Below, in pieces: positions 42,207-58,019 of a stretch of DNA of 64,000 nucleotides. Under the pieces are notes generated by a model. It saw nothing but the letters and a program-made list of their open reading frames with translations. It was not told the origin of the DNA and made no database searches. How positions within the stretch are numbered: position 1 is the stretch's first letter; the number at the start of each line of letters is the position of its first letter. The translations under genes were made by a program, and so were the position numbers. The stretch is from Echinicola soli (lineage in GTDB: Bacteria > Bacteroidota > Bacteroidia > Cytophagales > Cyclobacteriaceae): positions 1,121,501 through 1,185,500 of the forward strand of contig NZ_CP041253.1 in NCBI RefSeq assembly GCF_006575665.1, in the 5' to 3' direction.

Positions 42207-42279
<73 letters not shown>

Positions 42280-42285
42280 CTCAAG

Positions 42286-42381: not shown

Positions 42382-42465
42382 GCCGGGATGGTGGAATTGG
42401 TAGACACGCAAGACTTAAAATCTTGTGTCCATTAGGACGTGCGGGTTCAAGTCCCGCTCCTGGTA
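42382..42465 (+). tRNA. tRNA-Leu (anticodon TAA)
   Basis: An 84-nt class II tRNA. Acceptor 5' strand GCCGGGA, D arm through TGGAATTGGTAGACACGC, anticodon stem CAAGA/TCTTG with loop CTTAAAA (anticodon TAA), long variable arm TGTCCATTAGGACGT, and T arm GCGGG-TTCAAGT-CCCGC. The acceptor 3' strand is TCCTGGT, so two of seven pairs are G-U, including the first. The T-loop-to-3'-end segment is the same sequence that begins each unit of the GIY-YIG tandem array downstream. Confidence 0.95.
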
Positions 42466-42468
42466 CAG

Positions 42469-42494
42469 AAAAGCCGCTTTATTGCGGCTTTTTG
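42469..42494 (+). terminator. intrinsic terminator after tRNA-Leu
   Basis: AAAAGCCGC/GCGGCTTTTT hairpin with a short TTTATT loop and T run, directly behind the tRNA. The same hairpin, with TTTATC in the loop, recurs in units 2 and 3 of the tandem array. Confidence 0.85.
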
Positions 42495-42526
42495 TGGTTA
42501 ATATCATTTTTTGTATTTTCTCAGCC

Positions 42527-42766
42527 ATGTTTACTGTTTATGCAATCTCAAGTAAAATCAGGAATTACATTTATGTCGGGATGACATCAAACATAGAAAA
42601 CCGGATCAATAGACACAATTCCGGTTACGAACGAACTACTAAACCCTATAGGCCTTTCCTAATGATATATACTAAAGATTTTGCTACGCGGGCTGAGGCT
42701 CGCCAACATGAGAAATATCTTAAAACTCGGAATGGTAAGCGCTATTTAAGAGGTAAAATCCTTTAG
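42527..42766 (+). CDS. GIY-YIG nuclease family protein, copy 1
   Basis: A 79-aa single-domain protein, ATG at 42527. The GIY-YIG core reads FTVYAISSKIRNYIYVGMTS (VYAI for GIY, YVG for YIG); Arg26 in ENRINRH and Glu62 in RQHEKYLKTRNGK fit the catalytic Arg and metal-binding Glu. No DNA-binding domain is fused, as in the short UPF0213/YhbQ class. An open frame upstream (34 more codons) runs back into the tRNA tail and is not taken as coding. The stop TAG is the first part of the TTAGGACGTGCGGG repeat. It is identical in protein sequence to copy 2. Confidence 0.9.
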   Translation: MFTVYAISSKIRNYIYVGMTSNIENRINRHNSGYERTTKPYRPFLMIYTKDFATRAEARQHEKYLKTRNGKRYLRGKIL

Positions 42767-42868
42767 GACGTGCGGGCCTGTCTAGATGGCCAAACTGAAT
42801 AGCATGCATGCCCGTAAGATCTTTACAAACACCAAATAGAACGTATTGGCTTATGAAAGCCAGGTAGA

Positions 42869-43290
42869 TTCAAGTCCCGCTCCTGGTACAGAAAAGCCGC
42901 TTTATCGCGGCTTTTTGTGGTTAATATCATTTTTTGTATTTTCTCAGCCATGTTTACTGTTTATGCAATCTCAAGTAAAATCAGGAATTACATTTATGTC
43001 GGGATGACATCAAACATAGAAAACCGGATCAATAGACACAATTCCGGTTACGAACGAACTACTAAACCCTATAGGCCTTTCCTAATGATATATACTAAAG
43101 ATTTTGCTACGCGGGCTGAGGCTCGCCAACATGAGAAATATCTTAAAACTCGGAATGGTAAGCGCTATTTAAGAGGTAAAATCCTTTAGGACGTGCGGGC
43201 CTGTCTAGATGGCCAAACTGAATAGCATGCATGCCCGTAAGATCTTTACAAACACCAAATAGAACGTATTGGCTATGAAAGCCAGGTAGA
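42869..43290 (+). repeat. tRNA-tail/GIY-YIG tandem unit 2 (422 bp)
   Basis: Same order as unit 1: tRNA T-loop and 3' end, hairpin, GIY-YIG gene, TTAGGACGTGCGGG and spacer. The only differences seen are a C for T in the terminator loop and the loss of one T in the spacer (GGCTATG for GGCTTATG). Such identity points to recent duplication or gene conversion. Confidence 0.95.
42950..43189 (+). CDS. GIY-YIG nuclease family protein, copy 2
   Basis: 79 aa, the same protein as the gene at 42527-42766, with VYAI, YVG, Arg26 and Glu62 all intact. The DNA of the two genes also looks identical over the whole reading frame. No selection can be judged from two identical copies. It is followed by TTAGGACGTGCGGG and a spacer, then by a third tRNA tail without a gene. 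Confidence 0.9.
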   Translation: MFTVYAISSKIRNYIYVGMTSNIENRINRHNSGYERTTKPYRPFLMIYTKDFATRAEARQHEKYLKTRNGKRYLRGKIL

Positions 43291-43348
43291 TTCAAGTCCC
43301 GCTCCTGGTACAGAAAAGCCGCTTTATCGCGGCTTTTTGTGGTTAATA
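43291..43348 (+). repeat. tRNA-tail tandem unit 3 (partial, no gene)
   Basis: TTCAAGTCCCGCTCCTGGTA, the hairpin and GTGGTTAATA are repeated a third time; then the sequence departs from the other units (ACAGGGAG instead of TCATTTTTTG). This is the right border of the array. Confidence 0.9.
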
Positions 43349-43576: not shown

Positions 43577-43759
43577 TTTTGACAAATTTCGTTCGAAAGT
43601 AAATTCTTTACTCATATGCCAATGCTTTTAAATAAGAGATTTCTTCCCGATGTATCGGGATCGGAATAGCCTGCCCCGGTGGAGGATATCGGGCACATAG
43701 GCATTGTTAGAATGGCGTAGCTAGTGGAATACGCAGTCGCTCATCTAAAAGCGATTGCC

Positions 43760-57917: not shown

Positions 57918-58019
57918 CCGTCATCGCGAACGGAGTGAAGCGATCCCGTATCTGAAAACGGGATTGCCACGTTCCCGATAGCTCGGGACAGGCTATACTT
58001 CCTCGCTATGACGGTATTT
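57918..58019. repeat. MITE-like hairpin R5 inside the R1 copy
   Basis: Begins CCGTCATCGCGAACGGAGTG and ends TCCTCGCTATGACGG, so its ends are inverted repeats. Inner words GATCCCG/CGGGATTG form further stems. It lies exactly between the two halves of an R1 repeat. A relative is at 25163-25250. Confidence 0.75.

Follow-up and report, generated by a model that had tools for sequence, protein, structure and literature searches.

The window, a stretch of 64,000 nt from the genome of Echinicola soli, which is assembled as a single contig of 5.55 Mb, carries two tandem units of 423 and 422 bp directly after an intact tRNA-Leu(UAA) gene (Table 1). Each unit consists, in this order, of the tRNA-Leu tail with its terminator, a 79-aa GIY-YIG gene, a 14-bp copy of tRNA sequence and an insert of 92 or 91 nt, and TRF delimits the tandem repeat at 42446-43348 with 99% matches. 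The closest named proteins for this genome come from Echinicola, with 81% to E. rosea and 71% to E. marina. A preliminary description of the window had placed three copies of the T-loop-to-3'-end segment at 42446, 42869 and 43291 with periods of 423 and 422 bp, and the same positions were found again. Its statements that every full unit encodes the same nuclease and that each of these genes ends inside a 14-bp tRNA copy also hold, as the coding sequences are identical (PF01541, E 1.3e-16) and the stop codons fall within 42763-42776 and 43186-43199. Because both nuclease genes are identical, the second unit is regarded as a recent local duplicate. The spare tRNA-Leu copy is broken by a palindrome at G^TTC, and the intact tRNA-Leu stays beside it.

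Table 1. Positions of tRNA genes, tRNA-derived segments, nuclease genes and palindromic inserts in the window.
Feature	Position	Strand	Evidence and remarks
tRNA-Gly(GCC)	42207..42280	+	ARAGORN; adjoins tRNA-Leu(UAA) in 11/11 genus genomes, with or without cassette
Intact tRNA-Leu(UAA), host gene of the cassette	42382..42466	+	ARAGORN; Rfam tRNA, 58.1 bits
Tail copy 1: T-loop to 3' end and terminator	42446..42505	+	Sequence reading, TRF
GIY-YIG nuclease gene of unit 1, 79 aa, stop included	42527..42766	+	PF01541, E 1.3e-16
14-bp copy of tRNA-Leu variable arm/5' strand of T-stem, TTAGGACGTGCGGG; contains stop codon of unit 1	42763..42776	+	Sequence reading
Type-1 palindromic insert, 92 nt, long loop, CCTGTCTA...CAGGTAGA, at T-loop G^TTC	42777..42868	+	Sequence reading; 19-20-nt forms at the equal site in relatives
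Tail copy 2: T-loop to 3' end and terminator	42869..42927	+	Sequence reading, TRF
GIY-YIG nuclease gene of unit 2, coding sequence identical to unit 1	42950..43189	+	Sequence comparison
Second 14-bp tRNA-Leu copy, TTAGGACGTGCGGG; contains stop codon of unit 2	43186..43199	+	Sequence reading
Second palindromic insert, 91 nt	43200..43290	+	Sequence reading
Tail copy 3: T-loop to 3' end and terminator; host flank from there on	43291..43348	+	Sequence reading, TRF

The GIY-YIG gene provided the only Pfam match of the unit: four other ORFs overlapping the array gave none, and Pfam searches detected neither a tyrosine or serine integrase nor an HUH tyrosine transposase beside the palindromes. Between 42100 and 44200, Rfam matched two tRNAs and, below threshold, two RefA9 elements over the terminator region; no intron was found there at E 0.1, and the 92-nt insert matched no known RNA at the same value. 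Inverted repeats at both unit ends in the style of IS or MITE elements are absent in the window, where the palindrome occurs once per unit, inside the tRNA copy. Two palindromes of a second type, TCCCGATGTATCGGGA and TCCCGATAGCTCGGGA, are located outside the array at 43645-43660 and 57973-57988.

The 79-aa protein is encoded by a stand-alone ORF. Five residues, Y5, G18, R26, H30 and E62, are invariant in 17 aligned sequences and presumably have catalytic roles. A profile of 17 sequences, compared with the PDB, retrieved the UPF0213 structures 1zg2 and 1ywl and SLX1 entries, with the intron-associated endonuclease domain 1mk0 in last place. The dN/dS values of 0.03-0.33 obtained for nine of 16 pairs, which share sequences and several of which have dS above 1, indicate that the nuclease is kept by purifying selection; the pairs left out were out of register (three) or saturated or identical (four).

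Related loci were gathered from the best 80 of 109 relatives in named genomes and from family- and class-level searches, with the best 30 or fewer matches taken per genome search. With 14 repeats merged and L001-L002, L026-L045 and L126-L142 left out, the set comprises 177 distinct loci, which are best-scoring matches and not a random sample. At 154 of the 177 loci, ARAGORN identified a tRNA gene no farther than 600 bp away, in 152 cases on the same strand, and the other 23 loci contain a tRNA fragment detectable by blastn in 12 cases and none in 11, although some of the latter show tRNA-like tails by eye. The unit is thus tied to tRNA genes elsewhere, and the second outcome that the preliminary description had named as contrary to its reading, units present only as local slippage duplications, was not found. 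An extra partial copy of the nearby same-strand tRNA, defined as 14 nt or more at 90% identity or better, was found near the nuclease gene in 137/177 loci. The copied tRNAs belong to at least 13 isotypes, with Leu (80) followed by Arg (13), Val (11), Ala (8), Ser and Glu (5 each), Pro (4), Lys (3), Asn and Met (2 each), Phe, His and Thr (1 each) and one unnamed. A label taken from the nearest tRNA refers in some cases to an adjacent gene that is not the one copied (e.g., L024), and relabelling by the copied tRNA reduced the isotypes from 15 to 13 and the isotype changes on the nuclease tree from 31 to 25 (134 rows, a count without shuffle control). Nucleases that are 74-80% alike occur at different tRNA types.

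Three parts make up the anatomy that recurs at these loci: an intact tRNA, the nuclease gene and an incomplete tRNA copy that is interrupted by a short palindrome. The nearest tRNA lies upstream, as in the window, at 106 of the 154 loci (type A) and downstream at the remaining 48 (type B); in the type B loci that were read, for example L008, L009 and L012, the copy upstream of the nuclease gene is a broken 5' part of the tRNA. A point absent from the preliminary description is that the intact tRNA can be found on either side of the cassette. The flank outside the tRNA was duplicated above every shuffle in 44/76 type A and 12/27 type B loci, the rest being without detected duplication. Of the proposed minimal cassette at the T arm of a tRNA gene, one part is well supported by these data, namely a cassette that has a GIY-YIG gene as its only gene and is positioned at tRNA genes (154/177) next to an intact tRNA. 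The T arm proved to be just one of several sites.

The genome of E. soli contains nine PF01541 places, four of which are of the cassette kind and lie at tRNA-Leu (two), tRNA-Ala and tRNA-Val; no tRNA gene was found in the loci of the other five (L236-L240). A far longer array than that of the window, ten GIY-YIG units with a period of 457 bp, is present in genome G231 (C9:906052-910392). Such arrays, the two identical genes of the window and the fact that the filled genomes compared within the genus are all filled at one tRNA could be explained by ordinary local tandem duplication, in which unequal crossing-over between tRNA fragments multiplies a nuclease gene that once landed close to a tRNA and is not itself mobile. 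This explanation is nevertheless quite improbable in view of the recurrence of the anatomy with at least 13 copied isotypes, the similar nucleases at different tRNA types and the isotype changes on the tree; moreover, slippage alone does not make a palindrome-broken copy. Recurrence of the anatomy at many tRNAs led to the rejection of slippage alone.

Three loci (L071, L090 and L173) deviate in that only a 3' tRNA part and unrelated DNA precede the nuclease gene, an arrangement that would be expected if cassette and intact tRNA had been separated by the later arrival of an integrative island. Close relatives in L102 and L123 lie on contigs labelled Patescibacteria and Moraniibacteriota, a placement that reflects either horizontal transfer or a binning error. 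Searches for carriage by phages or plasmids, which covered 50,697 phage and 72,556 plasmid records, were negative at E 1e-5. Among viral contigs, 27 pattern matches included one relative (L231), which shows tRNA-like fragments and palindromes by eye and in which no tRNA gene was found.

The tRNA-Leu site of the window was compared among 11 genomes of the genus by tRNA-region search, profile scan and ARAGORN over a 3.3-kb locus at this one tRNA site. All 11 genomes carry the intact tRNA-Leu according to ARAGORN, and five of them (the window genome, G121, G118, G123 and G047) have a nuclease within the locus. In the remaining six, no nuclease at tRNA-Leu and, by pattern search, neither palindrome type was found within the 3.3 kb. 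The comparison of empty and filled sites suggested in the preliminary description was thereby obtained, with alleles with and without the nuclease gene at one tRNA-Leu site, and the outcome named there as contrary to its reading, relatives that lack the cassette and keep the spacer in place, was not found among the six empty genomes. In L128, the two target copies agree over 18 bp ahead of the palindrome and 68 bp behind it (86 bp); this repeat extends past the terminator into the flank, and L127, which has no nuclease gene, contains a similar flank once. No tail copy was found in the 815 bp examined in G123. The palindrome of G047 contains an IS that encodes a DDE transposase (PF01609, E 1.1e-19; L142:1053-2267), and the tRNA tail was not found again within the 4.5 kb examined. 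The pattern within the genus at this one tRNA site also fits descent and loss.

The insert was originally described as a 92-nt spacer between the 14-mer and the T-loop segment. Its location was confirmed (92 nt in the first unit, 91 nt in the second), but it is not neutral filler, as its two end octamers are those of the 20-nt palindrome found in relatives. Palindromes at the equal T-loop position read CCTGTCTACCGCCAGGTAGA in L047 and L051 and CCTGTCTACCGACAGGTAGA in L053, L069, L078, L088, L094 and L114. The insert of the window starts with CCTGTCTA and ends with CAGGTAGA, with 76 bases between them, compared to four in the short forms, and longer inserts of 93, 28 and 35 nt exist in L128, L230 and L058, respectively. 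Because its ends and its site match the short forms and longer relatives exist, the 92-nt spacer is considered a long-looped member of the palindrome family.

The precision of the insertions was analysed in the Leu and Arg branches of the nuclease (99 loci with tRNA), with a tolerance of 8 bases doubled to 15 bases lost. A total of 77 palindrome insertions was found in 65 of the 99 loci; 74 are clean, one doubles a single base, one loses one base and one loses eight. In type A loci, 42/50 insertions lie beyond tRNA position 50, whereas all 27 insertions in type B loci are situated at position 32 or less. A second search, which by design returned only clean insertions and allowed slightly freer ends, yielded 85 insertions in 70 loci, with 19-20 nt as the commonest length, and placed 40/51 type A insertions at the T-loop G^TTC. 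In the second nuclease branch, a hairpin, mostly TCCCGA...TCGGGA or kin, is present in the tRNA copy at 18/35 loci and replaces the anticodon arm within 2 nt at 13 of these 18; two of the 18 (L157 and L185) have hairpins that resemble ordinary tRNA-arm hairpins. Insertion and replacement sites beyond the T arm include the D arm and the anticodon arm.

Two further loci of the window genome contain broken tRNA copies. A row of three pseudo tRNA-Val genes, in which TCCCGATGTAGATCGGGA or a very similar sequence takes the place of the anticodon arm, lies at L004:1770-2335 (C1, ~519.6 kb), flanked by two intact tRNA-Val genes and with a second-branch GIY-YIG gene beyond. At L003:1200-1850, broken tRNA-Ala copies with the TCCCGA palindrome are found on both sides of an intact tRNA-Ala and a GIY-YIG gene.

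Replacement of the anticodon arm, together with the finding that ARAGORN still calls the three arm-replaced copies in L004 tRNA-like and with purifying selection on the nuclease, could point to a function that serves the host, in which the nuclease and a palindrome-bearing tRNA transcript would form a defence or tRNA-related system with the broken copy as an RNA decoy or guide. However, the nuclease had no match in the PADLOC defence library, the copies in the branch of the window are fragments of either tRNA end with a varying palindrome site, and presence within the genus is patchy, which makes a host-serving role very improbable.

Palindrome type tracks nuclease branch better than it tracks tRNA type. 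On a tree of 171 proteins (75 columns, many weak forks, 53 rows not counted and 6 loci with a profile score of 50 or less dropped), 92 type-1 and 26 type-2 loci need 6 changes; shuffled labels need 23.8 on average and were as low as 6 in 0/500 cases, a test inflated by relatedness. By copied tRNA, type 1 was found in the Leu branch at 64/77 loci with tRNA-Leu, at 3/3 with tRNA-Ser and at 3/3 with others, and in the Arg branch at 3/5. Type 2 alone occurs at 2/83 loci of the Leu branch, and these counts keep the type-2 labels of L015 and L093, where a CCTGCC palindrome in the tRNA copy is missed by the type-1 pattern. The second branch (n=32 by copied tRNA) has type 1 alone at no locus, type 2 alone at 14, both at 5 and neither at 13. 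The sole second-branch locus at tRNA-Leu carries type 2, and the three Leu-branch loci at tRNA-Ser carry type 1. Loci between the branches show type 1 in three, type 2 in four and neither in seven cases by copied tRNA, and three, six and ten when all 19 are counted. Neither motif was detected at 45/177 loci, and both at 11/177; among the 43 second-branch loci, 20 show neither. Within the window genome, type 1 is found at Leu and type 2 at Ala and Val.

Both motifs are concentrated around the nuclease gene. The type-1 pattern matched 205 times in the 153 kb within 450 bp of the gene and 7 times in the 313 kb beyond 950 bp, so that it is ~60 times denser near the nuclease than farther off in those loci. 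The corresponding numbers for type 2 are 69 and 7. Reversed control patterns matched 0 (near) and 4 (far) times for type 1 and 34 and 4 times for type 2, the near type-2 control matches being, we think, terminators.

Across 295 genomes, type 1 has a median of 10 copies in the 22 genomes with the first branch versus 1 in the 273 others (p 2.5e-12, kinship ignored), and no difference was seen in second-branch-only genomes (median 1 vs 1, p 0.14). Type 2 is raised in genomes with the second branch (median 13 vs 4, p 1.1e-5, kinship ignored) and also in first-branch-only genomes (17 vs 4, p 0.02, n=12). Branch presence was called at E up to 5e-16 for the first branch (272 genomes covered) and up to 1e-13 for the second, and the genome-wide counts include the copies at nuclease loci. 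By pattern, the window genome contains 37 type-1 (reversed control 1) and 125 type-2 palindromes (reversed control 6), and many palindromes also occur in some genomes without a listed nuclease, with 40 in G399.

Such dispersal would be expected if the palindromes formed a scattered repeat family in its own right, which accumulates in tRNA copies because these are dead and tolerate insertion, with the GIY-YIG gene as a mere neighbour. The 20 palindrome loci examined away from nuclease genes all lacked a tRNA gene or fragment, and the IS inside the palindrome of G047 resembles insertions into ordinary repeats. For one dispersed palindrome (L043), a position inside a repeat found no support, with 0 uninterrupted copies in the DNA examined. 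An independent repeat family is nonetheless unlikely, as it leaves unexplained the density of type 1 around the nuclease, the correspondence of palindrome type and nuclease branch even within the window genome, and the association of genome-wide type-1 abundance with the first branch only (kinship ignored).

The reading that we favour, and consider somewhat better than an even proposition, is a minimal selfish cassette of the homing type, composed of a free-standing GIY-YIG gene and a cognate palindrome and residing at tRNA genes; cutting, the cut site and movement of the cassette are what we infer from the arrangement of its parts. In this model, the nuclease would cut or nick a conserved arm of a tRNA gene, which in the branch of the window is most often the T-loop at G^TTC. 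Recombination repair would then copy in the unit, whose ends are tRNA sequence, and thereby double the target stretch (86 bp in L128), with the nuclease gene between the two copies. One copy would remain a complete tRNA gene, and the host would therefore be unharmed, while the spare copy, no longer a tRNA, would hold the palindrome at the presumed cut site, where it may mark or block cutting. Further cutting and recombination might generate tandem arrays (two units in the window, ten in G231), or the direct repeats might delete the unit and yield empty sites. Types A and B could both result from a single crossover of a circle, containing the broken copy and the gene, with the intact tRNA; neither excision nor a circle was observed.

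The palindrome would serve as the recognition or immunity site of its own nuclease. The expectation that a donor is immune is not plainly borne out, because the intact tRNA beside the nuclease should remain a target. As the hairpin of the second branch replaces an arm, one mechanism may not cover both branches; loop insertion and arm replacement would both be consistent with a structure-selective enzyme that acts on hairpins. More tentatively, and with a probability that we place a little under one half, the GIY-YIG branches, each with its own palindrome, may represent a new class of mobile element that inserts or swaps tRNA-arm hairpins, spreads palindromes through the genome in trans and parks between an intact and a broken tRNA. 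Such a pairing would be a GIY-YIG counterpart of REP/RAYT with tRNA genes as home.

If the proposed model is true, the cassette would be among the smallest self-spreading elements, made up of a single 79-aa enzyme, a single palindrome and sequence borrowed from tRNA. The model would also account for the repeated occurrence in Bacteroidota of small GIY-YIG genes close to tRNA genes and fragments of them, and provide a source for palindromic repeats in these genomes. In such a system, the cognate palindrome might reveal the specificity of the nuclease.

The closest analogue, and the best precedent for such a mechanism, is the phage protein SegB. SegB (T6; T-even phages) is a free-standing GIY-YIG homing endonuclease whose purified form cuts inside tRNA genes, the motif RAWTSGAAC being present in 23/83 cut sites, and whose nuclease activity is required for tandem amplification of tRNA-Tyr and segB (PMC13096335). 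The complement of this motif, GTTCSAWTY, reads like a T-loop: it is fully fitted by GTTCGATTC loops, the T-loop at the window's tRNA-Leu, GTTCAAGTC, agrees at only 7/9 positions, and in this motif the type-1 palindrome separates G from TTC. A cut at G^TTC is proposed on these grounds. Both systems comprise a free-standing GIY-YIG enzyme among tRNA genes. However, SegB is phage-borne, whereas the cassette enzyme is a single 79-aa domain, is chromosomal and occurs at many tRNA types, and its cutting activity is predicted. Palindrome-broken spare tRNA copies are a feature of the cassette which is not mentioned for SegB in the accessible part of that source (PMC13096335).

The nearest solved structures by profile are those of UPF0213 and SLX1, the latter being named structure-specific in the PDB entries matched. 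To our knowledge, GIY-YIG domains of the UPF0213/SLX1 type are not known as mobile or tRNA-associated. In REP/RAYT systems, short dispersed palindromes are linked with a nuclease-type gene family, the RAYTs, which are HUH tyrosine transposases. The cassette likewise combines short dispersed palindromes with a nuclease-type gene, but its protein is of the GIY-YIG family and its palindromes occur both inside tRNA copies and at other places. Integrase islands at tRNA 3' ends are tRNA-targeted and, like the cassette, leave behind an intact tRNA together with a partial direct repeat. In the cassette, however, no integrase was found in the unit of the window, which measures ~0.4 kb, the palindrome lies inside the partial repeat and the intact tRNA can be on either side. 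By the features tested, the cassette is not a REP/RAYT, integrase or IS element. No GIY-YIG cassette with tRNA copies or palindromes in Bacteroidota was found described among the matches listed, which covered open-access literature and few subscription papers or bioRxiv preprints. The working of the cassette, with cutting as a presumed step, resembles that of a homing endonuclease, of which it is possibly a variant. In its overall form, the cassette has the appearance of a minimal mobile element, as yet undescribed, that spares its host one functional tRNA.
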